Shown here: positions 12,072 through 50,017 of the stretch, one piece after another | Numbering within the stretch: the first letter of the stretch is position 1 | Layout of the letters: each line of letters starts with the position of its first letter | NCBI RefSeq assembly: GCF_036417845.1 | Contig: NC_089982.1 | Span: 61,455,684-61,519,683, forward strand | Origin: Apteryx mantelli | Taxonomy: Eukaryota > Chordata > Aves > Apterygiformes > Apterygidae | Length of the DNA stretch: 64,000 nucleotides | Direction of reading: 5' to 3' | The notes under the pieces: model-generated | What the model saw: only the letters and a program-made list of their open reading frames with translations | What the model was told of the DNA's origin: nothing | The model's database searches: none | Translations under genes and position numbers: made by a program

Positions 12072-12291
12072 CTTTAAAATCACATTCAGACAAAACCATA
12101 TAAACCACACTAGGATCCAGATCAGAAAACATTTCTGACATGCTGTTGAAGAGCTCTTCCTTATTGACACTGTACATTGCTTGTGATACTGAAGGTCTTG
12201 GGTCCCCTTGAGGGGATACAGCAACAGCAGTTCTGTCAAAATTCCCATTTTTCCGAGAGGGACTCCCACCAGTTTTCCTCTTCCGTGGCAT
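12072..12291 (-). CDS. N4BP2: N4BP2 first coding exon (start codon, CUE domain)
   Basis: This exon encodes residues 1-73 plus the first base of Val74. It starts MPRKRKTGGSPSRK, which matches the basic N-terminus of vertebrate N4BP2 (human MPRRRKNLGGNPFRK), and this fixes the start at 12,291. The start context is AACAAAATGC, with A at -3. From about residue 46 it carries the CUE domain, a three-helix ubiquitin-binding fold: ELFNSMSEMFSDLDP then SVVYMVLSECDFK. The domain is completed by ENAMDYLLEL in the next exon. The donor is AAAG/GTAAATA at 12,072/12,071. A reading frame continues upstream without an ATG, so no better start is available. Confidence 0.96.
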
Positions 12292-15002: not shown

Positions 15003-15126
15003 AGGAGTGGCTGCTGCTAAGGAGCTCTCTTGGTTGCCCCTGGCCAGAGGGAGTTGGGGCCTTTGATCCCAGTGGCCCTTGATTAGGGCGGGTCAAGCAC
15101 CCTCTAGTCAGTGCTAGGGAGAGGCC

Positions 15127-15134
15127 TATATAAG
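15127..15134 (+). promoter_or_regulatory. TATA-like box in the CR1 5' leader
   Basis: TATATAAG occurs about 125 bp into the element and about 100 bp before the first ATG of ORF1. LINEs usually rely on internal TATA-less promoters, so function here is only a possibility. Confidence 0.3.
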
Positions 15135-15234
15135 AGCCAGGCCTAGAGTGCAGTGAACAGAGGCAGCAGTTTGTACAGAAGGGTGTGTGAAGGGACCTTT
15201 GTTTCTGTTCCCTGTGGTGTACACTTCCTCAAGT

Positions 15235-16297: not shown

Positions 16298-16374
16298 GAA
16301 GGACGGGGGAAGGGGAGAGTTATAGTGCCAGGGTAGCTGGCAAAAGACTGCTCAAGTCGGGATGCCTCCAGCAG

Positions 16375-19242: not shown

Positions 19243-19302
19243 CCCTGCTTGAGCAGGGGGGTTGGACTAGATGATCTCCAGAGGTCCCTTCCAACCTCAG
19301 CG

Positions 19303-28246: not shown

Positions 28247-30174
28247 GTCAGCCAGGTCAACTTAAATAGCTGTAAATGGTGGTTTGAACTAACAGATTTT
28301 CTGAGATGGAACATGGATCAGTTATATAAACCATCCTGCTGGTAGATCAAAATTCCCAGTGGAGTCATGAGAAGAAGCAGCCGGAGAACTTAACCTCTTC
28401 CACAATCACAGCTGGATTCAAGAGAAAACATGGCCGTATTTAATTCTGAGAGGCAGTGTAACATAATGCATTAACGGCCCTCCTGACATTTTTTATAGTA
28501 GCAAAACCTACTTGTTTAGACAAAGGCAGCAACTTTCTAAAACTCAAGATTAATAATCTAGAACTTTTACCAGAGCTAAATACACACAAAAGTCCATTTA
28601 AAATAGAAATATGGCTGATTATTTCAGTCATTTAGTATAGACTCCAGATCAGCACACAGGTAGGAGTCAAAAACAACAGGCCATGACACGCCTCAGAACT
28701 ACAATCATCCTACATCCCTGTTTCAACATCTTCATACAGTAATCCAAGGCAACATAATTCTCTTTTGTAAATTGGACAAGGTCACAGCTAACGATCCACC
28801 TACACCACACAGTGAAACAGCTGTAAATACGCCATAGATGTTCCCTAAAACCATGCCCAGGCTAACATTTTTGTCACCTACTATTGCACTTTCATATTTG
28901 TAACACTCTAAGAATCTGGCTTCTCTCCCACATTAGTGCCTTGCTTAGGTGAAATGTACTGGTGTTAATACAATAGAGGGAGAGTTCTTAAAGAAATCGA
29001 GTGCAAACAAGAGCATGAAAAGCACAGGAAAATATCACACTAAAAAAAGAACACAAAAGGAGAAAGCCTATGAAGAAGGAATGAAAGCATTCTTAAGACA
29101 TGCTTTGATGCTGCTAGATTTCCTTTGTAGGCTCTACGCACAGGTATAACCTACAGCAAGACTACTGCAACTTAAAAGCATTACAAACACATGACCCAAG
29201 CTAGCCCTGCCCTAGTAATGGTGACTACACCCCAAGTAAACCAGGGACTAACACTGTCATGATTTCAAATACTTCAGATTTCTCTGCTACTCTTTAATTT
29301 GCATCTGGTTTATATGTTAAGCTTATGCTCTCCAATCATATCCCAAGTCATATTATATAAAGCTTTTACTTCAGTGGCCAGTCCTGAAGCTAGGATTTGC
29401 CACTCAGTAAGGTGAAATGGATGAAGAGCAATTTCATTATCATCTTTGTTCTTCTGCTTCACCTGAAACCTTCTCCAAACAGCTTGTGTAGGATTTGTGT
29501 TTAAGTTCTGTATGAATTAGTCATTTTTTAACCGCAAGGTCCCAGCAGAAGCCTCACAAGAGTTGAGCAGCATACTAAACTCTGAACTCTCATACTAGAC
29601 TCTAAAACATGCTGAGAGCCAGCATTCGAATTGTTCTTATTAGTTCAGAACAAGAGTTAAGGAATATACTGAAGAACAGCACTTCTTCCCTCTCCTTTTA
29701 GGTCGGGATCCTCTGAAGCCCCAACGACCTTACGGCGCTTCATTAGCAGAACTGCAGGATAAATCCCAAAGCGTATGTGAATACTTTGCTACACAGAACG
29801 TAACTTAAACAACCACTTTGTAAGCGTGTTTCTTTCGGCAGTTTTTGACTGTTCAAAATAAAGCCTTAAAGTACTAAATATCTTTTGATTTCGTTTTGAA
29901 TGAAATTCCATATACGGTCAGTTTAAGTTCCCGGGTTCCACTCTCTGAGAAACGTGCTTAATACTGACACAGCGCTCGGCACGGCCGCGCACGGCAAGCA
30001 GGTGTCGCGTTTCCCCGGGCGTCAGAGCGGCGGCTCCTTCCACAACAGGCTCCGGGGCTGCCGGTGCCGCCGGCCGGGAACCGGCTCCCCTCGGAGGCCG
30101 CCGGGGAGGGGGAACGACTCGGGGGGTTCCGGGAGAGAAGCCGGGCGCCGCGGCCCCGCCGAGCTCGCCTGCGC

Positions 30175-30214
30175 AGGCCCAGGCCCAGGCCCAGGCCCAG
30201 GCCCAGGCCCAGGC
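30175..30214 (-). repeat. GGGCCT hexanucleotide repeat (about 6.5 copies)
   Basis: AGGCCC on the plus strand, GGGCCT on the N4BP2-sense strand, is repeated without interruption. It lies about 650 bp downstream of the putative exon 1 donor, so it would be in the first intron transcript. Regular GGG tracts spaced by three bases could form a G-quadruplex. Confidence 0.9.
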
Positions 30215-30860
30215 GGGGAGGGCCGCGGCGAGGCGCCACTGGGGCAGGGGGGCAGTCTGGTCGCCGCACCCGGGGCGGCCCACAACACTTGGCCAGAACC
30301 GCGCGAAGCCGCGGCCCAGCGGCGCCAGGGCCGGGCCGGGGCCCCCGCGCAGGCAGGGCCGAGCGCCGGGGCGCCGCTGAGCGGCAGCGGCGCCCGCCAT
30401 TAGCGGCCTCCATCGCCGCGGCGGCGGCTCGCGGCTCCCGCCGGCCGCGCCGGGCGCCCCCGCGCCGAGCCCCTCGGCTGGCGGCAGCACCCGCCCCGCT
30501 CCCTCCCCTCCCGCGGCAACTCCCCTCCCGTGACGCCGCCACCGGCCTCCCGGCGCCACCCGGGCTCGCCGCGCTGCGGGGGGCGCGGCCGGGGGCCGCC
30601 GCCGCCCCGAAGACGCGAGCCCCGAAGACGCGGCCGCGGAGCCCCCAGCGCGCCCCTGCGGCGGAGGACGCCGCCGGCAGCCGCCGAGGGGCGCGGGCCG
30701 CCTCGCCGCCGCCGCGGCCATGGTGGAGGCCGCGCCGCCCGGCCCAGGCCTCGCCCGCCCCGCGCGGGCCGCCTCGCCCAGCCCCGCGCCCTGGAGGGGA
30801 AGGGGGACGAGGCTCCTCCGCGGCTCCTGCCGCCTCTCGCCAGGCCCGACCGGCCTTTAC

Positions 30861-30990
30861 CTCTCGTCGTGCCGCTGCCCTCGGCTCGCTCGCTTCCTGC
30901 GGCGGCGGCTGCGCTCGGGCGGGGCAGGGACCGCGGAGCTGCTCGGCGGCGGCGGCCGGGGAGAGGGGGAGGCTCCGCGGAGCGTGCGCC
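30861..30990 (-). other. N4BP2: Putative noncoding exon 1 of N4BP2
   Basis: A strong donor, GACGAGAG/GTAAAGGC, lies at 30,861/30,860 within the CpG island. A noncoding first exon is needed because the start codon is 18.5 kb away. The 5' limit is not visible and the upper coordinate is a guess. Confidence 0.4.
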
Positions 30991-31092
30991 GCGGGGACAC
31001 AGTGCCGCTCTCCGTCCGGCCGGGGAAGAGCAGCCCGGGAGGAGGCTCCGCGCCCGCTCCCTGCCCCCTCCCCGCCCTCCGCCCGCGGCCGC
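30938..31092 (-). repeat. 155-bp inverted repeat, N4BP2 copy
   Basis: The reverse complement of this block matches 48,714-48,868 at all but three positions by eye. It starts GCGGCCGCGGGCGGAGGGCG and ends CGAGCAGC, read on the minus strand. It ends 76 nt before the putative exon 1 donor. It contains the 12-bp palindrome GCTCCGCGGAGC at 30,972-30,983. Confidence 0.95.
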
Positions 31093-31400
31093 AGCGCCAC
31101 CCCGGCCGGCTCCCGCCCGGCGGCCGCGACTGACGCAGTGCGGGCCTGGCGCCGCGCTCCCCGGCCCCGGGCGGGCGAGCGAGCGAGGGGCCGCTGCCGG
31201 CCCGGCCCGGCCCACGGCAGCTGGGGTCCGGCCCGGCCCCCCGCGGCCTCCTCCGCCCTGCCCGGAGAAGCCCGGGGCCGCGGCCGGCCCTGAGGGAAGT
31301 CATTTCAGAAGGGAAACAGAAGCGGTTTCGGCAGGGGCGGAGGCGGGCGGGGATCAGGTTCTGCGGCATGGAGGCCCGCCGTGTTTAGTCTGCGCGCTGG

Positions 31401-33688
31401 CTAATTGCCTGCCACCCTTTCACGTGGCTGGTGATGAAGCTGGCTGCTGCCTTCACCTATTAATCTTTGGAAGGAGGAACTGTGTGCTTTGCTGCTATGG
31501 CAGAGGCTATATGAAATGATGGGCCTTGCCTGCAGAGGGCATATTGCTGACCACAGGATGTAGGTGGGTGTAACACGACTGGAGACGGAGGGTAGCAGGA
31601 TAGTTACATCTATCAGCCGTGTAGTGGCTGATAGGTTTTAAATTAGTAGTAAAAAGGAGGGTTGTTTAATTTCTAGTGCCGCTGTCCTGTTTTACTGGCA
31701 ATTTATAACGTGACAGCAGAAGAGTTTTGAGTATAGTCTAGAATGACCCAGTGGTTCTGCAGGCTGATTTTGGAGGAGAAATAAGTATGTAAGTGGCTGT
31801 CATGAGATCAAAAGTATTTGTGAAGGAGGAGAAGGGGAGTCTGGTGGAATCTGGCATCTGGGATGGAGTGGAGGGATGAGCGGCAACACAGGAGAAAAAG
31901 GGAGTAACTCGTTAGGGGAGGGTTTCATTACGCAGAAGTTCAGTTACACAACAAGCATTGAGCACTCGACAGAGATGGACGACGATGGGAAGAAAGGAGG
32001 AAAGACGTGCTTCTGACAGGCTGAGATGACGATAAACAGCTCTTAAATTGGAATTGCTGTGAAGCCGCTACGAAGAGAGCTAAGCACCTGAACAAGAATT
32101 TTGAATGCATCAACACAAGAAAATGGGCAAAACTCTTAGAAACTGTCAAAATTAGGGGCAGGTGTTGCTCTGAAGCAAACATAAATATTTATATAAATAT
32201 AAGTTTCCCAATAATCTGAATTTGGGGTAGGAGGAAGGGAAATGGAAAACAAATCTTGGAGCTCTAGTCCCCCGGGGGGAGGGGGGACGCTGGCCTCGCC
32301 TGGAAGCTCAGGTTCTATAAGGAAACTTTCCTGTGTTTTGATAGAAGTTCGCTGATCTGAGAAGTTTCAGGTTAACGAAGAGACATTTTATTTATTTATG
32401 TGTGTGTGTACTATATATATGCATAATATATAAAAAATGGAAAAATTCTGATCAAGTTTACCCATTACTGATTTCCAAGAACCGCACTCTAAATGTATAG
32501 CCATAGGCTTCCTTGTAAGCTCTGTCTCGTTGCCTGTGCCAGCAAGATAATAGGGCAGGGTCTCAACTTCTTATCTTCCTGCTTTTCACTTGGCTCCTGA
32601 ATGATGATAGGTTTTTCTCACATCCCTCCTTTGTGCCTCCCCCACACGCCATTGTCTTGAGAGACCTCCCCTTCCATCTGCATTCAAACTTCTCCCATCG
32701 GGGCACAATACCTCAGGAGGAAGTTAGCTGAAGATGTCACACTGTGATTTTCCTAGTGAACAGAAGTTTCTTCTCTTGTGAAAGAAGAGAATCATTTCTT
32801 CCCCAAAGGGAGTAATGTTGTCTCCCATCACGAACTTCACTTACATTGTGATTCATCCAATTCAGAGATCAAGGTGGTATCTCCCAGCCTAATTTCTCTT
32901 TCATTTTCCTTCAAAGAGGGAAACAAGAAGTGGCCTTTAACAGACTACTTACACTGAAGCACTACTTATTTAGCACCTAATCTTACATCCTTCGTCACAA
33001 GAAAGATCAAGAAAAATCACTGCCAGTTTTGTGCCACAGTCACTCCTACTCCCACAGCTGCTTCCTTTTGCAGCCTAGCTATTGTTTCACTCCTCCATCA
33101 GGGCTGACCTGTTTGCATTAGAGATACAACAATTTTAATGTGAATAAAGAACAAGAAAGTACAAAAATAATTAATAGTTTTAAGATGAACTAATTATGGG
33201 GTAGCTCACTGTAGCTGTCTTCTGAAACTGCAGAAGGGTGTTCAAAGTAATGTCTATAGCTTCTGGGGATCACAATCCCCAAGTGCCTTCTATCTGATAG
33301 CGGAGTAAGTGAAAAGCAAATCATTTTTGTGTGTAGGATTGCGTGTATTCTTGCAATACAAATAATGTTAACATTCTGAAAATGGTATTAAAAGCATTTA
33401 ATACGTTTGGGGAAAGAAATTGATTTAGGCATTGTTAATTTGCCTGTCACTTTGGTATTTCAGTGCTTATCTTGTAGTTATATGGTATGCAATATTTAAA
33501 TAAATAAGGCCAAACATTTACATTTCTAATACAATAGTTAAAGCATTCAGTCCACAGAATGTACTGGTAGGTTTAAAAAAAAAACGGACTCTGCTATGAC
33601 TCACTGAAGTAAAATAGGAAATTCTCCAATATACTAATATTGTAAATGTCCAAAAATATGGAGGAAAAACATTGATCAGTAGGGGTGG

Positions 33689-33728
<40 letters not shown>

Positions 33729-36700
33729 TGTCAAGTGGTGGTTTCATGCATGCACAAGGAACCGTTTGCTTAATTTTTCAGTGTCTGGACAAGTATCAGA
33801 AACAAAATCTTTTCTCTCTAAGGGTGTGATGCTGGTAATGTGTTAATCATACGTTTGGAAAAATAGGTCATGTAAATTCCAATCTAATGACTGTGTCTTT
33901 GTATTTTTAAGGTTGCCAAAAAAGAGGAAGAGAAAGGTTTTCAGCATGCTCGAATCTGATAGCCTCCATTAAACTGCATTGCTAGTGGGGTGTTGCTATT
34001 GGCACTTCATGCATGAAACTATGTTGTTCTTTGCCAGTTGTACACATTACAGTATTTGACACCATGAAAATGCCAGACTAATTTGGGTACTGGCAGATTT
34101 CTCACTACTACAGTTAACACTTTAAATAGGAGGGATATTGGCATCTAGATAGTTGAAAGAACCTCTAGTACAGTGATTATAATTATCTGTGTTCCTTTTT
34201 TTTTATTTTCACACAACTGTTTTTCAAACAACACAGTAATCACCTATTATCTGTTAATTTTTTTTCATTCCTTTGTCTCTCCTTATGTCTACAGTTGGCT
34301 TGTTTTTACTTGGAGTGGCTTGAACATACAGCATGTAATCTGTGCTGTTTGGCACGAGTGTTTAGTCTGGTCTTCAGCGAGTGCTTTCACGACAGATTTT
34401 CCATTTCAGTTTCTGCAATGCTGCCTCTTCAAAGTAAAAACACTTCACTATGTTCTTGCTTATGTTATAATTCCCATTAAAATATTATTACCAAAGATGG
34501 GCCATAAAAACAAGAAAATGACAATCACTTTTACTGTTTCTGATTATATACAGCCTACTAAGTCTATTCAGCAAATCTGTGCCTACTTTCTTTCTGTGCA
34601 AAAACAATTTGTAGCTTAAAGTTTGAGTAACATTATGATGTAGTAATATTGACATATTTAACTTTGTTAGGTTTAAAGACAATTTGATTTCTACTTGCAG
34701 TAACATATTGAGAATATACAATAATATATAGAGTAGGAAAACATCTGAGAAATTAGGGTGCATTAAAATATTAGTAATGCTACCTGACAAATTTGTCACA
34801 CCTGACAAATTCATACCTGCCTTCAGTAAATCTAAAATAAGTTATCTTTCAAAGAACTTGATGCATAATCTTCATCATTATTGAGAATTTCACTTTGGAC
34901 AACTAATCAGAGCTCCAAATTATAGTGATATTTTCCAGCCCTATAGATGAGAGAGGTGAAAAGTGCCCACATCTAGTTCCCACAAAAAACTTTGTAATAC
35001 AATGTTGATTCAGTCCCTCCATGCCATAACCCTTCCTCTTCTTATGGAGCCTTTCTTTCTGTCCCCAGCTTTAGCTTTTATTTACCATTGAGGGAACTGA
35101 TCCATTCTAGGGGGGGAAAAAAAGGGGGGTGGTAACCCTAATCCTTTTTTAAGATGTCTTACTTGGCTTATTGAAATCTCTGTATCTCCAGTCATCACTA
35201 TTTTGTCCAGGATATTGTACTTTGTGTTCCTACAAAAATAACTCTCCCCTCAGCCTGAATTAGATTCCTGAAGTAGAAATTTAATTTTTGAAATTTTTAG
35301 GTAAAAAAGTGAAAAGGGGAGGCAGAGAAGGAGGGACAGAAGGGAGGAGGGAGATATATATATGCATAAATATATATTCTTGGATTTTTGGAAAGGGGAT
35401 GGGGAGAGAGAAGAGATGATGACAACAAATGATGTAATCCAGGTGGTAAAGAATTATACTTAATTGTGTCTTCTCTGCAGGTAAGGAATGAGATCATGCT
35501 TATATGCCTGACAAAAGCCCTACTGCCACAAGGACTGAATTTGAAATAAGTTTGCACTTCAGTTTTGATTTGTGGTGAATCTCATTCATGTATTGGATGT
35601 TCTCTGCTATGCTGTTTTTATCAATCTGATATGTCAAATTTCATAGATATCAAAAATCCATCTTGCTCTGTTGAGTCTGAAAAAAGGAAAAACAAAATGT
35701 GCTTAACATTTCTGCCTTGCACTTGACAAAAAGCAATAAGCTGACCTTCATTGTAACTGCCGTATGTTTTTATCTGTTGAATATCAGTCTTTATTTTTAG
35801 AAAAGGCATTGAACCTATCCTATAGAATATTTGATATTAGAGATCTTAGACATCAATGTATTGAAGGGCATTATCTAAAAATTAAATCCAGGAGTAAAAT
35901 AGTGTATTTCTATATTTAAAAAATCAGATTTCATTTATATTACTGCAATAATTAGACCAAAGTTAACAGAAAAAAATGAGTAATGTTTGGCATTTCTATA
36001 ACTTGTACCATCCCCAAAGTGACTTATAAATTAATATACCAAGGGGATCCATTTCATGCATCAGTCGCTGAGGCCACCTCTTAAAGTGCAACAGCTGTTT
36101 AACTACACCGCACAGTACCAGAGGGTGGGTTAAGGTGAATATAATACCCAGTAGAAACCATAGGAACTCTCTAAGTAGAATGCTGTTATCTGAATTGGAA
36201 TTTGACCAGGATATGAAAGTTTACTTACTGTTTTTAGAAAACAATTCTGTTTTATGCTGACCAAGTAAGAGGACATTTCCAACAACACGACATTAATGGT
36301 AATCAGAGCTGTAGGAACAAAACTGCTCCAGGACAGAAAATCTTCGGGTCTCCAGTGTGCAAGGAACTGCCCTTAGGCAGCTGTGGCAAGATGACAGTCA
36401 CAGCTGCAGAAGACATTGCTCTGAACTGGGCTAAATTTTTCTAGGTTAAGACAGAACTAACATAATTCAAGAAGTTGCAATGTATAACTTAAGTATTCAT
36501 TTTCTTGGGCAGCTGAGCTTCTGGGATATCTTATTCACAGTCAGGTCCCTAATATGAGTGATCCTAATCGTCCTATCTTGGACCTTGTCTTCATTAAGGA
36601 GAAAATGGGGTGGAGGCAGAAAGGGAAAGAATCTTGTTGCTTTTAGTGGGAACAATGTAACATGATACATATTAGAGAGTTAAAGTAATCTTATGTTCCT

Positions 36701-39700
36701 ACCTGTTTACTTTTGCCCTGATAGCATGCAAAAAGTACAGACTGCTTTGCCAATATTAGGATATTATGGCATTTAGGTATTACACAGCACCTAAAATAAT
36801 TTTTTGCCTTAGAGCAAAACAGGTTCATTTCCTCAAATGTATTAACCCCCAAATTCACTTACTATGACCAGTCATGTAGAGATGCAGAACTAAACACCTG
36901 AAAAAAATCTATTTCTTGAAAATGTCAATTTAATTTTGACATTTTGCAGAAAAGCAAAAATAAGTTATAATTTCTTGCTTTCTTCTGAGTATGTAGTATT
37001 ATTTCAACTATAATTTTGAGTGGGTTTGGATTTTATATTTTCATATGTTATGGTTCTTAATATTTTGTGACATTAAACATTGTCTTATCAGTCCATTTCT
37101 CCATACTAAAATACTGAAAAAGAAATTTCATTATTAAAAACTTTCAGTGATTCCAAATTAAAAAAAAAAAAAAAGTATTTTCCTTCCACTGGAAGTTTTG
37201 CAATGCCTACATTTTGCTCTGATTCAGAGATTTTGAAATATTAAAATACTGGACCTTGCTTCAGAATGGAATTTGTGTCTGTAACTAATGTTACAAGTAT
37301 CACTCCGAATTTTAGGGAAGTTTCAATCACCTGTTAACCTCACTTGAATGAAAAAATGCTTTTACTTGTCAAGACAGACTTTGCTCCATTGTCTGTACAA
37401 TGCACTTACCAGAAGTTAATTGCTTGCCAATCACAAGTGATTTACAAATGTCCGCCTCTCAATGACTGACCTTCAATTAATCAGAGATTTTTAAAAAGTA
37501 TAAAAATCTAGTTCTTTCAGAAAGAATCCAACTCCAGACCTGATCCAGATCTGCTTAGTCTACAAAATGTGCCAAGACCACAACTCAATAGCTTCAAAAG
37601 TCTACAATACATAAGCATAGCTACCCTCGAGATACCCTGCTTAGCGTCAATTCTCCTCAGTCCCCAATTGTTACATGAAAACTGGCTATCTGTAGCAAAG
37701 CTTAACCTGTATCACAAACATCTAAGAAGTATTCCAACTGCTTATAAAAATAAATTAGGAAACTTGTTATGGTCTAAACCCACAAGCACTCATTTATGAA
37801 TTCAATTTTACTAACTAGTTTCTAAACTTGAATAACTCGTACGCTGTATTTCTTGCACTGAAACCAGAAGCCAAGCAGGAGATGGGGGAAGGGAGCAGGG
37901 AGTATTGTGCATTTCATAAAACAGCTGCATAAACTACATTTTTTCTTTTTTTTAAGGAAATCCTTTGTTCAGCATGTGATTTTTTGCAATGGTCACATGA
38001 CGGAACCTCGATTATTTAAGCAGGAACCTGACTCCATATTATTTGGTCACTGCTGAATGGGCACCTTGGCCGCCTTTGCTTTCCTGTAAATTCTGACTTC
38101 TTCTTCTCCACCCCCCCTTCCCCCCCCCCCTTAAAACCGCCCATCACTTCTACTTTTTAACAGTCCGCACCCTCCGTCCCTGGAAATGGGGCCACATTCT
38201 TTCCCAATGAATAACATGAGCAACAAAAGAAACACAAAGTTAGACCCCTGCAGGCAGCTAAAGACCACCTCGCGGCTGCAGAAACATGAAGGACAGTTAC
38301 TCATAGTAATAGGAAAATCTACAGCTTCCAATTTATTTGAGGACTAGGTAAAAATTAGTTAGCTGGAACATGCCAAATTCATGCCCGAATCCAAGTCACG
38401 AGGACAGAGGGAGTCAGATCTTAAGATAAGCTCTGCTCCACCCTGCCCTAGCTCATGATATTCAGATTTATATCTGTAACCAGATTTAGCTCACACACAC
38501 AATTCAGGATAGAGGAGAGGTGCTGTAATTTGGATCTGGGCCCATCTGTAATAGACAACTTACATAAAAAATAGTTTATACAACTGGCACGAAAATATGT
38601 TTAAACTTTCTTCAAGTAGTCGGTCAAACACTGAACTCTAATTGTTTTATTCCTCTGTTTAAATCCCCCCAAAACCTGGAAGAAAGAACACAGTAATTTA
38701 AAAGAAATGGATAATTAAAAACAGGAGTAGTTCAAATTTTATATGCAATTCTTCAATTGCTCAGTTATGATTTCTTCTACGCAGTGGTGATGGTTCGGAG
38801 TGAACATCCAGACATTGAAACATCCCTTGGTGTACTGAAGAGCAGAAGTGGAAAAAGGTTAAATATTCAGCAGAAAAACAAGCTGCAAGTTTTTCCTTCA
38901 TCCATACACACATTGATAATTACTTCCCTGAGTAGCATTATGCAGTTTGTGCCTCTGATGACTCTTAAAGGTGAATGTTTTTGGACTCTCATAATTATAG
39001 TGGTTGTACTTCTACTTTCCAAATTCAGAAGTGATCGAAGGCACATGCAAGTAAATCCCTATCTGGATTATGACTAAACCTATTATTAGAACTGGAATAT
39101 GTGAGAAACAGCACTTCCATATATTTAAGCTTGCTTAATGTATCTGTCACCACTCCGAATGGTCAGGTTCACCCTTTTGTGGATGGCAGATTGCATCACT
39201 CCCGGGTATGACTGTAGCCACCATCACATCTGTGTTGTTCCCCAGGCTCAGCAAGACCTTTACTAACCGTGGCGGTATTAAAACAGCAAACAAATATATG
39301 CATGCAGAAGCAAAAATTCCCAACATATTTTGAAGCTCCCCTTCATATGTCAATGGGGGGGGGGGCAAAAAATTTCACAACAATCGCCTTTCTAACTTTA
39401 GATTTTGATAGTATGTTCTGATATCTTTAAACCCTCTTGCAAGTTCTTTCAGTTAGTTTCAAAAAAGTTTTTTTTTTTTTTTTTTGGTAGCTTCCAAATA
39501 TGCAAAGCCAAAATTGAACTGGAGAGGAGCTTTGATATGAAATAAATATTCAATGTAGGTGTAACTAGTTTTAAGACATATAACAATATATTTAATCACA
39601 TTGTTTTCAGAAAGTGGCTTCCCCAGTTCAGCCTGAATTTGGCAAAATTATACCTATTGACCACAAATACTGTAATTAGAATATACTTGCAATTCACTTT

Positions 39701-41424
39701 GGACCATTTTCTTCACCTTCCATTTCTGCATTTTTCTTCACTATATATGAAGTTCACTGATGCTCAGCCAGCTCTAAATTCTCTACTACTTGTGTTCCTC
39801 TTAGATCCTCCCATTTCTCCTGCTCATTCACACCTTTTCCTGTGTGCCCACTTCCCAGATCTGGCAGCAGGCCAAGGGAAAAACCTGCTTTTAGAAAGGA
39901 CCACCGAGACAAACCCCAAAGTAAGGGTAGAATAGTAGTAACATTGTTCTGTTCTATTTTATTGTATGCAGAATCTGATAGGACTGTGAACTTATTTTTT
40001 CATTCAAATATTTTTTACTATCAAGCTGTGTGAGAGAATGTATAGCTGTAGTTTTTGATGCAAGGATACAAGTCTAAGAGCCTCAGGCAGTGTAAGAGCT
40101 AAATCATACTAAAAATGAATGAAGAAGAAACTGATTGACTCGAGCTTTCTTCTCCACCTGCTTGCTTACAGATGGCTGCTGAGCAGATTTTAAAGGAAGC
40201 TTAAAAAAATACTGATCAGATATATATCAGTGGCATTCCATAAGCAAAAACTGAGTAAATATAAAGTGGTGACTTAAATGTTCACATCCTGGCTAAAAGA
40301 CTTTTGTCTGCCTTTTTAATGGTCTAAGAGACAGACAAAGAAAGTCTATAATTTTAGAATGTTCTTAACTGAAAATATAAATGATTAGGTATGAACATAC
40401 AGAGTCTTGAAGACAAACAGAACAGTACAGAGATATATTTAAGAAAGCAAGTGATTATGTGCTTGATACAGTGTAGTTAGAGTATATTACAGAGTACACA
40501 TGAGCTGCCTTGCCAAATTCAGATAGGATATAAATAGTGGTATTAGATGTTAGTAAATTCGTAAGTGGATACATATCAGACTACTTTACAAACAGTAATC
40601 CCTCTGCTGGCATTGAATATCATCACCTTCAGTGATCACTGACATCATGGGCTCTTTTTTTTATTCAGTCATGGAGAGTTCTTGGTTAGAAATCTTGAGT
40701 ATCATGGACACAATTTCTGTATCTTTAAGCATTCATATTTCTTGAGTCTATGCCTTTCTTATTTCTGTATTTGCTCTTCCCTTGTCTAGTCTACTTCTGG
40801 ATTTGTCTAGTCAATACCTGATATTGTGTTCTCTTTAGATACCAAACCATTGATTGTCCGCTTTGTTAAATACCCATTCAAATGCTGGCTCAAATAACCT
40901 CAGTTACTCTCTCTGTTGACCAATGTTGTTGTTATTAAATACTATGCACTGCCAACTTCAAACACGAAAACTTTCTTTTTATTCCAAACATCACTTTCTT
41001 CTGCATTTTCCTCTTTCACCTACGACCATACCATTCTGGACAAAAGTTATATAGTTTTCATTGATTCTAGACTAGGGACCAGAGGGAACAGACATATAGA
41101 ACAGCATCCTACGTTTTAATTTTATGCTAAATGCATACAGCTAGTGGTTTGCCACATGTTCTGAATTTTGGAAAGTCTTCCTCCATTAACATTCAATTCA
41201 ATTCCATGCTGCTCTATCATTACATTGTCAATGTGCTCCTTTGTCATGCTGCCTGACAACCTGCATGTATGCAAACATCTAATACATTAACTGAAGTAGA
41301 ATCGTAAGGATGAAGTGACAGGAGTTGCAGACTTCAGGTAAGTTATTTTATTTTATAAATTCAAATTGTTCTTTACAAGGGTTTGAACTTCCAGCTTTCA
41401 TATTCAAGTTCCCAAATACTTACA
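31401..41424. other. N4BP2-PDS5A intergenic spacer, left part
   Basis: AT-rich spacer with a long GT microsatellite (33,691-33,727), T and C homopolymers (about 38,106-38,130 and 39,470-39,485) and no recognisable gene. A plus-strand open frame at 38,757-39,077 has no family resemblance. Confidence 0.6.
33691..33727 (+). repeat. (GT)n microsatellite
   Basis: Uninterrupted GT dinucleotide, about 18 copies, preceded by a G-rich stretch. It could form Z-DNA and is probably length-polymorphic. Confidence 0.97.
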
Positions 41425-41690
41425 CGGTGTAGTGTTTTAATGAATGTCCCCTCAAACAGTTCACAGAACTCATTGATTGAATCATCATTAGCTGCTTTCC
41501 TAGCAGCATAAACCTATATGATCAATATATTTTCTGACTTTGTTCAAAGGCAAATTATAATGATTCTATTGCTCACAGAGTCATACCCAAACACTTTGAA
41601 GCCTCCCTGAGTATGATAAATGCAACCCTTTTTTAAGATTCTGAATAGTACACCACACATTTATCCATCATCATGAAATGACCCCATCAT
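41425..41690 (-). mobile_element. RTE-like LINE relic, endonuclease part, minus strand
   Basis: Read on the minus strand, 41,690-41,425 resembles the APE endonuclease of RTE-clade LINEs. A VYYSES-stop-KRVAFII stretch corresponds to the family YYCGQE..RRNGVAFIV. It is followed, after a frame change, by FGYDSVSNRIIIICL (family LGY.P.SDRI....L), a degraded IIQVYAPT (LII-stop-VYAA) and NEFCELFEGTF. There are two or more stops and a frameshift. Similarity was judged from memory of RTE/BovB proteins, so the exact clade is uncertain. Confidence 0.6.
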
Positions 41691-42400
41691 TACACTACAG
41701 CTCTGAGATTTCACACCCATTCATCAAACATCTCTTTGACTATAATGCTAAATTCCCTCTCCTCACATTTCAAGTTCATATTCATTTATATAGTTTCATA
41801 TCACGCTTTTCTTTACTGCAAGCAGCAGGCATTAGATCAGTGAAAGAATTAGGAATAGCATTGCAAATACAATCAATACATTTCATGTCAGAAGCCTCTT
41901 AATGGGAATTTGTTAGTACCATGGATTGACATGTTCTCATTTTTGAATAGATCATAGGCCAGTTCTCATCTAATTGGGAGACGGGGGAGAGAGGGGCTGT
42001 GCTCAAATCGTCTTCCCTCCAGTAGGTAGCTGACATGGGCAAAATATATTATCAAACTTTCCCAGTTTTCTCAGTGGCGTTTCATCTACTAGCAGTCCCA
42101 TCCACTCAGAAGTTCCCCAAATATATCTTGTTTATGATTGCCTGGTATTATTCAAACAAGTGCCACACACTGCTCTTATAACTGCAGATTTCTATGCAGC
42201 CTGACTTGACTACACCAAAAAAAAAAAAAAATTCTGAGAAGGATTTTACAAAATTGAAAACTTGAATTTGAAATAGACTCCTTTTAAGTGATCTTAGGCT
42301 GATGACAAAGTGCTCTTTGTCATAACTGCTTATGCTGTGCAACAAATATTAAAGAGCTAATAAGATAATGAAAAATACAGGCTATCCTTGAATGCTCTAT

Positions 42401-42476
42401 AAACAAAATAACTTTACTTAATAAAAATAGAATGTAAAACAAAATAACTTTACTTAATTAATAAAAACAGAACATA
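42401..42476 (+). repeat. Imperfect tandem duplication, 36-bp period
   Basis: AAACAAAATAACTTTACTTA occurs at 42,401 and again at 42,437. Each copy is followed by a similar ATAAAAA(T/C)AGAA(T/C) stretch. It lies just upstream of the RTE reverse transcriptase relic. Confidence 0.85.
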
Positions 42477-42517
42477 AGCTAACTTCATACTTAACGGTCT
42501 AGCTACAGAGACTGGTC

Positions 42518-43063
42518 ATGAATTCAGTTACCTGGGATCAAATATATCTAATCAGAATCTGTCCAAAAGAAACTGGAAGAATTTGAAGAATAGTTGATTC
42601 AGTCATGATTTCCCTTATAAAAGCCTGAAAAAACATTTCACCCCAAAAAGTAGAAAGATTTGACTGGTGAAAGGCTTAATTTTTGCTGTACCAACCTATG
42701 AATGTGAATCCCAAGAAATTATTGATAGTGACAGGAAGAAAACTGAAGCTTTTGAGATGTGGTGCAAGCAAAGACTCTTGCATATCTCCTGGACAGAAGA
42801 AAAGATAAATGGTCATATTAAAGATATTATTGGAGAAAAGTAGACTTGGTTGTCGGAAATGAATAGGTATAAATGTATGTGCTTTGGACGCATCAGGAGC
42901 AGAGATGGAAATAGCCTTGAGAAAGTAATTATGGAATGAATGGTGACAAGTCAGCACAATAGAGAACAGCTAGAAAGGAGGTGGATAGATGATATGCAGT
43001 AGATTGCTCTGACTTCAGTTATTGAATGCTCAAAACTAGCAGTGGATCAAGGAGGCTTCTAAA
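42518..43063 (+). mobile_element. RTE-like LINE relic, reverse transcriptase C-terminus, plus strand
   Basis: A single frame with several stops reads EFSYLGSNIS near its start (the family FKYLGSTIS). It continues with TYECES, then KTEAFEMWCKQRLLHISWT (the family AFE.WCWRR.L.I.WT block), then FGRIRSRDGNSLEKVIME and LERRWIDDMQ. These blocks occur in this order at the C-terminus of RTE/BovB-type reverse transcriptases and not in CR1. Stops at the codons after IGEK, VIME and DDMQ show long decay. Together with the minus-strand endonuclease part 0.8 kb to the left, it looks like one inverted, internally deleted copy. Confidence 0.7.
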
Positions 43064-46000
43064 AATTTGGCTGTATCACCAATATACATGTACTAATAAA
43101 CTGATTTTATTTAACTTGCAAACAAAGGAAATATAACTGCAATTGTTCTGTCAATACAGTATTTTGTCAATTACAAGTGCATGCACAAATGCACACTTTC
43201 TTACATTTCCTTAACAATACTCATTTCTAAATGTGACTTGGTACCATAAAATCTAGTGGCAGGTATAACTGCACTATCTCCAAGTGTGACTGAAAATAAG
43301 GACATTTTCAGACGGCCCACACAAAACCCTCCTTACCAAAAAACAACGTAAAATAACACTTACATGGATTATGGCAAGGGATCAGTTTCTAAGGAGAAAA
43401 TTATCCATACAGTATTTGGACCTTCTCTTTATTCAGAACTGTTGGTACCCCATCTATGAGTCTTTGGAGTCTCTCTTTTCTTTTCCAAGGAAGCCCATTG
43501 GGTCTCCAGCTGATCGTTTTCGAGAGGTAGTGTACACACGTCTTCCTCTAACTTTCCATGGCTTTTTGCTTTGAACTAAGCAACTTGCTTCTAAAACCAT
43601 CTGTTGCATTTATCACATACAGGTGGGAGACTTTTCCTCCTAGCTTTGATTGCCAATCAATGTAGCTTGTGAGACATGTGCAAGTCCCTGTTTTCAAGCC
43701 AAAACATGCTTCCTGGTCTACTGCTCAATGAGAGTAATTTCACAACAAATACCCTCTGGAATGGGATATATTTTGGAGCTCTTTTACTATGGCAACCCAC
43801 ATTGTGATGAAACACACCTTTGACTCTGGACAGTGTAACCACTGTTCTCAATTTAGAACAAATGTAAAAAACATGAATTCTTTTATAAAAATAGGTAGTT
43901 AAAACTATTAGGTGCTGTTATCCAAGATAGTGGTACACTGCAAAGTTTCATTAGAAACCTCAGGAATTTCCCTGAAGAACAATACAGGAAACTTAGAGGC
44001 TATATTAACTGGAGCAGCTGTGTGAAACTACATATGTGAGAAAATCAACAGGTAGACAAAGATATGGAGTGTAGACTACTGGATCAGAGACTAATACCAA
44101 AGTCAAAAAGATGAAAGAAAAAGCTTCTGTGGAAAACTTAGGACAAAAAAAAGATTTTCTAGAGCTTAATTTATACTGAGTTCAAAGGAATTTGTGTACT
44201 GCAAGAAAAATTTATATTATTGAAATAAAATAGGATTTCAGAAAAAAAAAAAACTATTCATGATCAATTTCTCCTCATGCCAAAAAGCAACCTACTAGAT
44301 ATTGAAAACTGGCAAAATGTTAGAGCTGAAAACAAGTAATGATGATTTTCTTCATCTTGACCTATTTGACTGGTCCTTTAAAAAATACAATACCGAAGGA
44401 CCACACTCCCCTACCTTGTTCTACAAAGCAGGACCTTTCAAGAGCAGAGTTATTCTTAGGAAGTGCTTTGCCAACAAACCAGATAGAATTTCCAACTTGT
44501 TCACCCAGGTGACTGGCAGGTAAGACTTATTCTACAGTTCATGATACACTATGGTGTCTTGATATGAGTATTTAGTTCTTGATCATTATTAGTACTCATG
44601 CTTACTGTACTAACAAAGACCTGAGGACAATCATTACGCTGTTCCTGGAAACATGTGCACATAGCTCACCTTAATCAACATGAATTAAGGCATTCTCTGT
44701 GCTGAAAGTAAACACTCAATACTATCTTCTGTTCCACCTGAAAGTCATTTTGTTCTGAAAACCTTGTGCTGCATTATTTCCCTTACCAGTAATAATGCCA
44801 CATTCTTCTTTTCCTGTTAGTTTCCTACCTTCTCCTGACACGATATAGGGAAAGGAGGAAACAGAAATGGAACATACTTGCTCCAGAAGAGCGTTCAGCA
44901 CCCTTTGTTTTAGTCTGCTTATAAATTACACTTGCAATGGTAGTCTAAAATATATTAATACATGAAAAATCCCAAGGATTAGAGTAAATCCATTGATTTC
45001 AATGGAAATTTGTCCAGGCAGGGACTCAGTAAAATCTGGGTAAAGATGAAAGGATTGGGTCTTATTATTAGACAGAGTCATCCATTAAAACTCAAGGGAT
45101 CATGTGAATCTGGCTACAGCTGTAAAAAAAGCAAGAGTCCAAGTCAGAGCTCAGCTGCATGCTGAAATTAGAAGGGTGAAGGTCAAAAAAGAAAGGCAAC
45201 AAATCAGACACTAGCGGCTGCAAACATATCTGCAAACAGATTTCTGGACTATTCAGATTAAGAGTACCACAAGTCAGATTATTTGAAGCTTTTATGTTTG
45301 CACATTCTGGAAATTCCATGCATATATTCAAGTTAATTGGCAGTTAAGTGGTCATTCATGCCTCCCTTAATTGGGTCTGATATCAGAACCACATGCTTTG
45401 TTTTAGCCTTTTAGAATTTCAAATGGTGCAAAGTATGTATCCTGCTGCTTCTCTTCTGGGGAAAGATGGAGCACTGTCTAATCATCCCATGATTACAGAA
45501 TTTGCACCTACTCCTCTCCTAACAACTTGGCCTGATCATAACTTATCTGAGACTTCAGAACATCATATATATCTGACAGACAGCATCTGAATTAATGGCT
45601 ATCCTAAGAGCCCTCTGTCAGTTTTAAACTAGTATGCTGGCAAAGTACTCCTGCTGTGGAGCTACATATACCAGCAAGGTTGGACTTTGTAGTGATACCA
45701 CAAATTACTGTCAGAGGGCAAAGCAAAGTAATGGAGCAGTCTACCAGTAAAACTGCATCTATATTTAATGGCTAAGGACTCCAACAACATTGAGGCAGAG
45801 CAGCGGTCAAATCTTTCATGCTGCTGACTAACCATATCTGAGAGAGCAGAAATCTAATGTAAACCCAGTCTAGAATACTCAGCCTTCTGCTGAGGGGTTT
45901 CACGACTTTTCCTGTGGTCTACTCCAGATATGAAATCCTGAAAGTAAGGAATCTTCAAAAATTACTCCATAGTAATTGCTAACTTCACTATTTATCTGAA

Positions 46001-47489
46001 GTCTGCAGGAAGACACAAAGATCTTGGTCCACAACCAGGGGTATTTCAGTGTAGGGCTTCATGAACAACTTGCCCAAGATGAAATGAAGTTTTAGCTAAA
46101 TGAGCAGCCTTCAGCTGGCACTTTTGCCTTAAGTGAAATCTTTAATTGCAACATCTAACAACATGTTCGTTCCAGAGTACTTATTTCTTAGAATGAAAGA
46201 GTTTATCACATTCTTCAGCAGAAAGTAGAGGCCTCTAGAACCACACACTAGGGCTCTGCACTTTGTTCAGTCTCAGACTAGAAGCAAGTTGTAGGAGCCT
46301 AGCCCCGTTATCTTTTCATTCTTTTTCCCTACGTTATGACCTTTACTATCTATGTAAAGATGGTGTCAGTTCCTGTGGAAAACCTGTAACTACAAGATAA
46401 CAAGAAAATATTATGACGTTGTAGGTCATATTAATGATATACATGAAATGCCACTTTTTAAGAATACAATTTTACTTGAAAATAAACATTAGAAGACCAG
46501 GAAGTTCAGATTTCAGGTTAAATTTCTATAACACAACACCTAAGCTATTTCAGTTCTGCCCAAACTAGAAGTCCACCTAACATCTTTCTCGCTTTATATT
46601 TGGGTCATAAAAAGAGCGAAGGTCACTGCAACTCTATTTCTTGTATCCTTTTTGCTGACTTATATGCTCTCTTCTTTTAAATCACAGACAATTCATACAG
46701 GTTTTTTTTATATATATTTTTAGCAACAGAATCTATTTCTAGGATTTGTTTCTGATTTATTATGCTAATACAAGTGCATTAAAAATAATGAATCTACATC
46801 TAATGAACTGCTTATGTTAGTCATCTGATTCGGGAAGCTTACCTAATGTAAGAAGTGAAAGATAAAACCCCCAAATTCCTTAAAAATATAAGTTTTGACA
46901 GTATTTATTTTTGAATTTTACTGACAACAAATAAGAGTTGATAACTGTAGTCTTGAGTACACTTACTCCATTGCACCATGTCTAGCAACATCAGCTCTAA
47001 GGCAAATCTAATCTAAATGACCACTGTTTTTTTTTTTAATAGGAAAAAATATTAAATACTTGGTGTTGACATGTTGGGGTTTTTTTATCCGATGCCATAT
47101 CCCATTCTTATGGTCACCTGTCTGCTGTGAACATGTCAATCCTGTGACCCTCTGTGTTTCTAAGTCAGTTAAGCCTGGGATCCATTTTTTCTAACTCTGG
47201 ACTCGCAACCAGATTCAAACCTGTTGTCTGGCACCCTTCTAGATTTCCAAATCAGAGTTTGAGATCTCTTAAGCATTTCTTGCAATCCTCAGGTGTTTTC
47301 AGTATCATCCTTCTGAGTGGGTTTCACATAGGCTATGGACACCCATGGTTTTTAATTTCTCTCCCCCAGGCCAACACGGCAGGGACGCAAGGAACACAGA
47401 TTTAAGAGAGAAATTTCCTATCCATATGACGTTACTCCAGAAGCACCTGAGAAGTCCTCAATCTTTGCATGCTTCTCCTCTCACTCCTT
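43064..47489. other. N4BP2-PDS5A intergenic spacer, middle part
   Basis: AT-rich spacer. I see no gene. Open frames at 43,371-43,574 and 44,302-44,523 show no recognisable protein. A possible old interspersed repeat lies at 44,975-45,065. Confidence 0.55.
44975..45065 (+). repeat. Possible ancient interspersed repeat fragment
   Basis: The phrase 'taaatccattgatttcaatg' followed by 'aggattgggtctt' resembles wording that recurs in many sauropsid dispersed repeats. Recognition is from memory and the family is not identified. Confidence 0.25.
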
Positions 47490-47660
47490 GTCGACGTGGC
47501 GCTTGGCGGTAAGCAGCAGCACCCATCCCTTCGCACACCTTTCTGGCAGGCCCGGCCAGCTCCTCCCGCGCGCGGCAAGGCCTGGCCCCGCCACCAACGC
47601 CCGGCCAGCGAGGGGCCCCGTCCCCTCCTGGGCTCACCCCAGCCTCCTCGCTTTAGTGTC
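47490..47660. promoter_or_regulatory. Small isolated GC-rich/CpG patch
   Basis: This is about 170 bp of GC-rich sequence with several CpGs, 600 bp outside the main PDS5A island and separated from it by AT-rich DNA. It includes a plus-strand donor-like GGCG/GTAAGC near 47,508. It could be an alternative promoter or first exon, but nothing proves it. Confidence 0.35.
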
Positions 47661-48713
47661 CCCTACAGACAGCTCATTGGAGATTTTCAAAACTGGGAAT
47701 AACGGTACTTTTAGTTGGTGCCAGTAACCAAAAACCGATCAGTTGGAGACCTTAGATTAGTCTTGATCTGTTAAAAATGATCTTTCAGTTGTCATGCACC
47801 TTCTCAGAGGAGGGCAGGCATATGGAAAACACTTTATACATAAACATAGACACGCTTAGCATATAACACAGATTCAAAATGGATAGATATATCCTACTTC
47901 ACCACTGACTTTCCAGATATATTCCACCTCTTGGAAATATGAAAGAATATTAAATTACAAAACACTTTTTGCATAGAAGGCTCTTCTGAGTTTACTGGCA
48001 AGGACTCCTTCAATGTGCATATTCAAGCTTCTCCTGAAGATTTATAACTAAATTAATTTCTGAGCAACTCATCTGCTGACAATGAAGAAGAAAAATTTAG
48101 ATGCCAAAGTGTGGATGTGGCTCTTTCCCCAACCCATTTGAAGAAGGGCTATTCACTTCTACCTGCCACGGCACAGACTGCGCCACCACAAACTATTTTC
48201 CCCTATTTTGTTATTTATCGCGCCGATCAGGCCTCGCCACCGCCAACTAGAAAGTAGCAAGTCGATACGAAACGCGAGCTCAAAGCCACCTGGAAAGTGC
48301 CGGGCAGGGCCGGACCGCGGCGGAGGCCCGCGGGGAGGGCAGCGCCGGTGCCTGGCGGCCCCTCCCGGCGGCCCCGGCCCGGCCCGGCCTCGGCCGCCGC
48401 CGCCGCCAAGGGAGCGACCCGCCGGGCTCGGGGCCGGGCTCGGGCTCGGGGCCGGGCTCGGGCCCGGCTGCGGCAGGCGCGGCGCGGGGAGGCCGCGGCA
48501 GCCGCCAGGCCGCGGCCCGCCAGCGCCGGGCCCTGCCACCGGGGCCGCTCCGGGGCTTTTGGCGCCAAGCGGGAGGCAGCGCTGCGGCGGCCGCGCCCGG
48601 TACTGCCCGCCGCCGCCCTGCGCGAGGCTCGGCGCGGCCGGGACGCTCGCGGCGCGGCGCGGGAGCCGGGGCCGGGGGCGCCGGGTGGCGCGGCGCGGCC
48701 GGGCGCGGGCCCC

Positions 48714-48868
48714 GCGGCCGCGGGCGGAGGGCGGAGAGGGGGCAGGGAGCGGGCGCGGAGCCTCCTCCCGGGCTGCTCTTCCCCGGCCGGACGGAGAGCG
48801 GCACTGTGTCCCCGCGGCGCACGCTCCGCGGAGCCTCCCCTTCTCCCCGGCCGCCGCCACCGAGCAGC
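48714..48868 (+). repeat. 155-bp inverted repeat, PDS5A copy
   Basis: This block is 98% identical (3 mismatches by eye) to the reverse complement of 30,938-31,092. The palindrome GCTCCGCGGAGC is at 48,823-48,834. It ends 186 nt before the putative PDS5A exon 1 donor. Flanking sequence on both sides diverges abruptly apart from weak GC-rich similarity upstream. Confidence 0.95.
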
Positions 48869-48899
48869 CTGCCCCCCTCCCCCCAGCCCTCCGCGAGCA

Positions 48900-49054
48900 G
48901 GAGCCGGGGCGGGAGCGGGAGCCGCTGCCACCGCCGCACCGCGGAGCAGGCAGGCAGCGGGAGCCGCCGGGGCAGCGGGAGCCGCCGGGGCGGCGCGGCG
49001 AGCACCACCCGGCACGGAGGCTACTCAATGCTGCACCTTCCGGAGCTGCATGAG
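48900..49054 (+). other. PDS5A: Putative exon 1 of PDS5A
   Basis: The donor GCATGAG/GTAAAGGC at 49,054/49,055 closes a GC-rich leader exon. An ATG at 49,028 is in frame with the main start after splicing to 49,847, but it has a weak context (T at -3, C at +4). The true 5' end is unknown and the lower coordinate is arbitrary. Confidence 0.55.
48954..48989 (+). repeat. 18-bp tandem duplication in PDS5A exon 1 region
   Basis: GCAGCGGGAGCCGCCGGG occurs twice in direct succession, followed by a degenerate third start. Confidence 0.85.
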
Positions 49055-49846
49055 GTAAAGGCGGCTCCGGGTCCCGCTTCCCTCCCTCCCTCCCTCCCCG
49101 CCCGCGCCCCCGCCCCCGCCTGCCCGTCGCCCGCGGCCGGCGGGGGTGCGCGCCGAGCCGGGGGGCGCTTTGTGGGCCCCGCCGAGGGAGTTGGGTGAGG
49201 GGCGGCGGGGCGGCTCCGGGCGCGGGGCTGAGGGGCATGAAGTTGCGGGAACAAAATGGAAAGTGGCGAGTGGCCGGGCCCCCGGGCCGGGGGGGGCCCC
49301 GGCGGCGCGGGGGCGCCGGGCGGGGGCCGAGGGCCGGGCGGGGGCCGCGGGGGTTTTGTTTGCGGCCGGCGCCGCCGCCTCCCTGCCCCCTCTCCTGTTG
49401 GTTCCTCTGCCTCCCGATAGTTTTGCGGCCTAACTGTTTAGGCCTCGTCTCCCGGCGCCGGGGCTGCCGTGCCGGCTCCGGCGCCCCGCCGCCGCCGCCG
49501 CCCGCCCCGCCGCCGACCCCGCGGGCTGTGGCGGCCCCGCGGGCGCAGGGCATCCTTCGATCGAGCCTAAAATTTCATTGTAAAGCCGGCGGCTCCGAAG
49601 TGGTCGCGTCGGGCTGGAGCAGCCCGCGATGGAAGGAGGCGGCGCGGGGCCGGGGCGGCGGGCGGCGGCGCGGCGCGGCGGCCTCGCCGAGCGGCGCCCC
49701 GGGGGCGGGATGCGGCGGCCGCGGGGCCGGGGGCCGCCGCCGCCGCCGCAGTGAGCGGGGCCTTCGGCGAATTGAGGGTTAGAAATGGAAAAAGAGGGTT
49801 AGAAAGTCGTTGCTATTCTGCTGAACTTTTGTTTTCTGACCGATAG
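49055..49846 (+). other. PDS5A: Putative PDS5A intron 1 (within the CpG island)
   Basis: A 792-bp intron bounded by GTAAAG and a TTTTGTTTTCTGACCGATAG acceptor. Its first 700 bp are CpG-island sequence. Confidence 0.55.
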
Positions 49847-49897
49847 AGGCCGGTAGAGGACTGTGGAGAAGGAAAGTTTATAACCAGCAGCACCAGG
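49847..49897 (+). other. PDS5A: PDS5A 5' UTR segment before the start codon
   Basis: This is 51 nt between the acceptor and the start codon. It contains no stop in the frame of the main start, so it could be translated if an upstream in-frame start were used. Confidence 0.6.
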
Positions 49898-50017
49898 ATG
49901 GACTTCCCTGCTACCCAACCAAAACCTACTGCCGATGGTAAAATCATCTACTACCCTCCTGGAGTGAAGGAGATCACAGACAAAATCACCAACGATGAGG
50001 TGGTGAAACGGTTGAAG
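49898..50017 (+). CDS. PDS5A: PDS5A first coding exon (residues 1-40)
   Basis: The exon encodes [20 protein letters not shown] then [20 protein letters not shown] and ends in phase 0 at a GTGAGC donor. The [13 protein letters not shown] block identifies PDS5A (human [20 protein letters not shown]); its paralogue PDS5B has KEISDKIS and a different N-terminus. PDS5A is a nuclear HEAT-repeat protein that binds cohesin with WAPL and sororin and controls sister chromatid cohesion and loop size. The start context (A at -3, G at +4) is strong. Two Tyr precede PPG where other PDS5 proteins I recall have one, which suggests a TAC duplication or an error. The remaining exons lie beyond the window. Confidence 0.96.

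Follow-up and report, generated by a model that had tools for sequence, protein, structure and literature searches.

The window analysed here, a 64,000-nucleotide (nt) stretch of the Apteryx mantelli genome (C5:61455684-61519683), carries the 5′ regions of two unrelated, divergently transcribed genes, N4BP2 on the minus strand and PDS5A on the plus strand; the CpG island at the head of each contains one copy of a block of about 155 bp, in sense with its own gene. Exact alignment of the reverse complement of 30938-31092 with 48714-48868 gave 152 identities in 155 ungapped columns, in agreement with a sequence-only reading of the window that had reported an inverted 155-bp match with three mismatches. 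Counted along the block in the sense of transcription, positions 22, 128 and 146 differ (G/A, C/T and G/A, N4BP2 copy/PDS5A copy). All three are transitions, with G or C in the N4BP2-side copy and A or T in the PDS5A-side copy, and the third turns a CpG into CpA in the PDS5A copy (24 CpGs in the N4BP2 copy, 23 in the PDS5A copy).

The pair stands alone in its surroundings. A seed-and-extend repeat search of 29800-50000 returned a single inverted pair of at least 40 nt, with arms of 161 nt (30938-31098 and 48708-48868, 97% identity) and 17,609 nt between them; nothing else of 40 nt or more, whether inverted or direct, was reported in this interval, including between the islands. Gapped BLAST carried the alignment to ~196 columns at 92% identity. 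Self-comparison of 264 contiguous kb including the window (BLAST, dust on, E ≤1e-6) gave seven similar pairs, among which the block pair alone exceeded 92% identity and was the sole inverted pair of at least 100 bp with >90% identity. Of the other six, three have a member at window 18.9-19.3 kb, where the 3′ part of a CR1-type element lies, and a fourth joins two relatives of that element. The remaining pairs lie outside the window on its left: inverted arms at a distance of ~78 kb and, farther left, an adjacent direct pair; the inverted arms (window -78283 to -74564, L037:1717-5436) are ~520 bp long, 74% identical and arranged around a CpG island (L037:2951-4200).

Genome-wide searches covered an assembly of 1,504,198,195 bases in 408 contigs. 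The block found two places, itself at 280 bits and its partner at 267 bits (E = 9.8e-70; both candidates scored), and a mid-block 25-base word, allowed ≤3 mismatches, matched once forward and once in reverse, while the reversed control gave 0 and 0. Island-wide queries of 1.8 kb and 2.0 kb each recovered the other copy at 269 bits. Their remaining rows were background from GC-rich sequence, with scores of 53.6-67.1 bits in 18 of 20 rows for one query (20/20 candidates scored) and of 51.8-77.9 bits in 49 of 51 rows for the other, among 40/117 candidates scored. These background matches had 67-95% identity and reached 385 query bases at the low-identity end. Because the search passes over very common words, weak GC-rich copies could escape detection; near-identical copies should still be detected, since they would carry a non-repetitive core. 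None of the three other CpG islands searched genome-wide (out of five in the 264 kb that measure 400 bp or more) had a near-identical partner; the best non-self match was 59 bits for one of them, and the other two recovered themselves alone. The exact block 25-mer had no match in bacterial, archaeal and viral collections, a result that is uninformative on birds.

Signs of retrotransposition are lacking at both copies. Neither is bracketed by a direct repeat of 7 nt or more, and the N4BP2 copy has none of at least 5 nt within 5 bp of its edges. The PDS5A copy has none at its exact edges and one 5-nt repeat that begins 2 bp beyond its right edge, a match that 125 of 1000 random cut pairs also gave, so that no target-site duplication beyond chance is present at either copy. 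Within 200 bp of either copy there is no AATAAA on either strand and no run of A or T longer than 4. Because poly(A), AATAAA and a beyond-chance duplication are all absent, LINE (long interspersed nuclear element)-mediated insertion is not supported, and a template-copied patch fits better. A class 1 (LINE-mediated) insertion or processed copy was rejected on the same grounds and because the flanks are 79-89% GC rather than T/A-rich.

The block itself, examined in the N4BP2-side copy, contains a direct repeat, CGCGGAGCCTCC, at positions 41-52 and 114-125 (48754-48765 and 48827-48838 in the partner), 73 bp apart, and TCCCCGGCCG occurs twice within it, 64 bp apart. Folding of the PDS5A-side block as RNA gave a z-score of 0.14, with 98 of 200 shuffles at least as stable, and thus no indication of a structured RNA; an Rfam scan of the window found no known RNA family at the gathering threshold.

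Features of the N4BP2 and PDS5A 5′ regions (window coordinates; the slash in donor motifs marks the splice position)
Feature	Position	Strand	Basis
N4BP2-side copy of the 155-bp block, sense to N4BP2	30938..31092	-	152/155 vs partner; two genome copies
PDS5A-side copy of the 155-bp block, sense to PDS5A	48714..48868	+	alignment, genome searches, repeat search
CpG island, 5′ end of N4BP2	29901..31450		CpG-island scan
CpG island, 5′ end of PDS5A	48151..49850		CpG-island scan
Rest of predicted non-coding N4BP2 exon 1, 77 nt past block to donor GAG/GTAAAGG	30861..30937	-	donor scan
Rest of predicted PDS5A exon 1, 186 nt past block to donor GAG/GTAAAGG	48869..49054	+	donor scan
GGCACT, match to presumed initiator consensus BBCABW, block position 87	31001..31006	-	motif scan
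GGCACT, match to presumed initiator consensus BBCABW, block position 87	48800..48805	+	motif scan
Two GGGCGG boxes and start of G-quadruplex-type motif, block positions 9-21	31072..31084	-	motif scan
Two GGGCGG boxes and start of G-quadruplex-type motif, block positions 9-21	48722..48734	+	motif scan
N4BP2 first coding exon part, MPRKRKTGGSPSRKNG...	12072..12291	-	motif search, sequence
PDS5A first coding exon part (includes ...GVKEITDKI), then GTGAGC	49898..50017	+	motif search, sequence

The identities of both genes were confirmed outside the window. PDS5A is marked by seven PDS5-family exon matches, in order and on the same strand (C5:61537441-61571403); a second series of eight such matches, on C1, is presumably PDS5B. 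For N4BP2, the evidence is a minus-strand exon of the Smr region, 10.5 kb to the left of the window, with matches to PDB entries 2vkc, 2d9i and 3fau, all named NEDD4-binding protein 2 (best E 7.5e-24). The first coding exon of PDS5A had no match in PDB, the larger N4BP2 coding piece had no informative match there, and neither the PDS5A piece nor the two N4BP2 coding pieces matched a Pfam family. A search of the genome with the Smr family gave no match although the Smr exon exists, probably because introns split it. With identities and strands settled, the divergence of the two genes and the common orientation of the block relative to transcription, both proposed in the sequence-only reading, are borne out. 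The intron upstream of the first N4BP2 coding exon also houses, antisense to N4BP2, a near full-length LINE that we take to be of CR1 type (15100-19300, plus strand). Its frames include one of 246 amino acids with a GDSL-like lipase match and one of 788 amino acids with reverse transcriptase; its endonuclease seems to be split between frames 16375-16722 and 16876-19242, the latter giving a partial, sub-threshold match.

Each copy lies inside its gene's CpG island and upstream of the predicted exon-1 donor, at distances (77 nt for N4BP2, 186 nt for PDS5A) that would put the block just upstream of or within each first exon, as had been suggested. The hexamer GGCACT within the block matches BBCABW, the presumed initiator (Inr) consensus, and neither gene has a later match ahead of its predicted exon-1 donor. 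PDS5A has no further match in the interval that begins 543 bp ahead of the block and closes 700 bp beyond it; N4BP2 has two more, 41-49 bp upstream of the block. The GGGCGG boxes are presumably of Sp/KLF type. From these motifs a core promoter shared by N4BP2 and PDS5A is possible, and function of the block as a shared promoter module would be plausible. A motif scan found no ATG in the block, nor in predicted N4BP2 exon 1 downstream of the block start.

Other features of the two predicted first exons were also recorded. The predicted donors at 30861 (minus) and 49054 (plus) both read GAG followed by GTAAAGGC, 11 bases alike and outside the block; this likeness could be splice-site consensus alone. 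Should exon 2 begin at 49847, an ATG in predicted PDS5A exon 1 would share the frame of the main start and, through 49028-49054 and 49847-49897 (plus), add 26 residues; its Kozak context looks weak. The N4BP2 island also carries a perfect hexamer array, (CAGGCC) x 6.8, at 30174-30214, to the intron side of the exon-1 donor predicted there.

We consider it probable, with appreciable room for doubt, that the pair arose by a single recent, short inverted duplication between the promoters of these unrelated, divergent neighbours. A patch of about 155-161 bp, or perhaps as much as ~196 bp, would have been copied from one CpG-island promoter into that of the neighbour, the donor copy staying in place; either PDS5A or N4BP2 could have been the donor. 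The likely route would be break repair or a replication template switch at one promoter, with the other promoter as template. Active promoters are open, transcribed, prone to form G-quadruplexes and often in spatial contact, and template-switch events can yield inverted copies. The patch would have landed in sense with the second gene, beside its predicted first exon, and so have become part of both promoters or 5′ untranslated regions (UTRs). The PDS5A island shares more 11-mers with the block than does the N4BP2 island (upstream 5 vs 0, downstream 16 vs 8, both strands), a difference that is uninformative on the donor, given that a control island, that of L037, shares 11.

The divergence of the copies, 3/155 or 1.9% (95% interval 0.4-5.6%), bears on when such a copy would have been made. 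The neutral rate in birds is ~2e-9 per site per year; at this rate the block copy would be about 5 million years old, with a range of roughly 1 to 14, and selection or conversion would make it older than it appears. As to placement, CpG islands make up 6.7 kb of the 264 kb (7 islands). With so small a share, a random local copy would seldom land in another island, near a first exon and in sense; we put the chance of such a landing under ~1%, a post hoc estimate. Promoter breakage and contact might bias such events, or copies at promoters might be noticed or kept more often, which is an argument and not a test.

How sharply the similarity ends matters for this interpretation. The flanks have a GC fraction of 0.79-0.89 over 300 bp. 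Two sets of real sequence served as controls besides shuffles: 76 comparisons with GC-rich loci, drawn from 16 loci fetched for their resemblance to these islands plus 3 neighbouring islands and biased to high scores, and 108 offsets among the five other islands of the 264 kb, unselected for similarity. Downstream of the block, the 300-bp local score of 33 was reached by 194/500 dinucleotide shuffles and by 65/76 of the GC-rich-locus comparisons, and the anchored score by 32-34/150 shuffles and 6-14/108 island offsets under three scoring schemes. Upstream, the 100-bp score was reached by 111/500 shuffles, the 300-bp score by 33/76 GC-rich-locus comparisons, and the anchored score by 105-123/150 shuffles, again under three schemes. 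Several points weigh against a single recent copy with clean edges: the upstream 300-bp local score of 49 was reached by just 5/500 shuffles; the upstream anchored score was reached by only 1-3/108 of the real-island offsets; and a few short co-linear upstream matches are what let BLAST extend to 196 columns. A longer or older original copy is therefore possible. Moreover, insertion in one gene is a presumption, and the age rests on three differences. Flank homology is absent downstream and weak or mixed upstream. Because the upstream tests disagree, we call that edge sharp within roughly 40 bp and not to the base; the sharp stop on both sides described in the sequence-only reading therefore stands downstream and is loosened upstream. 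A degenerate 15-bp tandem array (48658-48726, 4.5 copies, 70% matches) enters the upstream edge of the PDS5A-side block and could have blurred or shifted it. The same flank data bear on an older inverted duplication whose copies would have been kept near-identical through conversion from one promoter to the other, or through strong constraint common to both; we regard this as unlikely, if still a serious competitor. Inverted repeats 17.6 kb apart suit gene conversion, the copies occupy equivalent places in the same sense relative to transcription, and some tests show slightly raised upstream similarity; that all three differences run from G/C to A/T, N4BP2 to PDS5A copy, is uninformative by itself. 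A converted core should, however, leave decayed homology on both sides, whereas downstream there is none and the other upstream tests are negative, so that this option, also raised in the earlier reading, draws at most weak support from the mixed upstream results. Among the possibilities listed there, a recent inverted duplication fits best, given the near-sharp edges, the 1.9% divergence and flanks that are not clearly related.

The remaining explanations fare less well. Part of one GC-rich island could have been put in the other by an error in building the consensus or closing gaps, at places of ~80-90% GC, where sequencing and polishing are weakest, yet both copies lie inside one 88.5-Mb contig with no N across the 264 kb, in unique flanks and in inverted orientation, and they carry three fixed differences, which speak against an artefact because an exact copy-paste error would give identity; we judge an assembly error improbable. 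More improbable still is the survival of just these two copies from a dispersed GC-rich repeat or a transposable element. Although elements typically have sharp edges, two copies in 1.504 Gb refute a dispersed repeat for this assembly and dispose of the dispersed element that the sequence-only reading had allowed for, which by its own account would show itself as many genome-wide hits; the lack of a beyond-chance target-site duplication and of poly(A), the lack of any Rfam family in the window, the unremarkable fold of the PDS5A-side copy and the position of the CR1-type LINE elsewhere (15.1-19.3 kb) point the same way. Convergence or chance similarity of GC-rich promoter sequence has a negligible probability: GC-rich places do match the islands, at the identities given above, but the listed background stays at or below 77.9 bits and the block pair scores 267-280 bits, a gap that refutes this explanation.

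If the preferred reading, a recent copy from one promoter into the other, is taken further, the block might be a complete core-promoter and 5′ UTR module that was copied to the divergent neighbour and now fires both genes, an extension that the motifs permit and that we hold to be rather unlikely. Were it true, with transcription starting at the A of the Inr at block position 90, the first 66 nt of the N4BP2 and PDS5A mRNAs would be common to both apart from 2 mismatches. A single mutational step, with promoter-promoter contact guiding the copy, would then have made the genes co-regulated in this lineage. The kind of mutation is known and its placement is unusual. Our impression is that most work on short template-copied insertions concerns cancer, polymorphism in humans or experiments on break repair. 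If a likely core promoter did pass in the germline from one gene to another, unrelated one, and lies in sense with each, the case would offer a natural experiment on how promoters come to be shared in one step, and would bear on whether promoter contacts steer break repair. In practice, very short 5′-end reads or CRISPR interference (CRISPRi) guides drawn from the block may fail to separate N4BP2 from PDS5A, and the 17.6-kb spacer could become inverted by way of the two copies. Judging by titles and abstract openings, the papers matched for PDS5A, N4BP2 and promoters describe no shared promoter; this case was likewise not found among the matches listed for templated insertion, template switching and promoter conversion or duplication, as far as their titles and abstract openings go.

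Comparison with known systems helps to place the pair. A bidirectional promoter is one shared region of ~1 kb or less between two starts, and the present arrangement was rejected as one, with its two separate islands and blocks 17.6 kb apart. Bidirectional head-to-head CpG-island promoters likewise involve a divergent pair, CpG islands and potential co-regulation (a related paper is PMC2777200). Promoter sequence common to genes also features in the evolution of mammalian gene duplicates (PMC10100218); unlike those duplicates, N4BP2 and PDS5A are unrelated and share a promoter piece alone. Duplications by template switching or microhomology-mediated break-induced replication (PMC2621351, PMC7954356) are a further comparison. 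Events of this kind can leave inverted copies. The title of PMC7954356 speaks of short-range switching; in the present case a promoter piece would have been carried over 17.6 kb. The class 2 templated sequence insertions (TSI/TSIP) of Onozawa and Aplan, as set out in PMC5110952, provide a further parallel at the level of the present copies: they are short copies whose donor remains intact, without target-site duplication (≥5 bp) and without poly(A), and their templates are enriched for transcribed sequence. Both block copies are present, each in its own unique context, and the block length of 155-161 bp falls within the 73-414 bp (median 191) given there for experimental insertions. The paper describes donors from distant regions and insertions polymorphic in people; the two copies here are 17.6 kb apart, inverted, and both set in CpG-island promoters.

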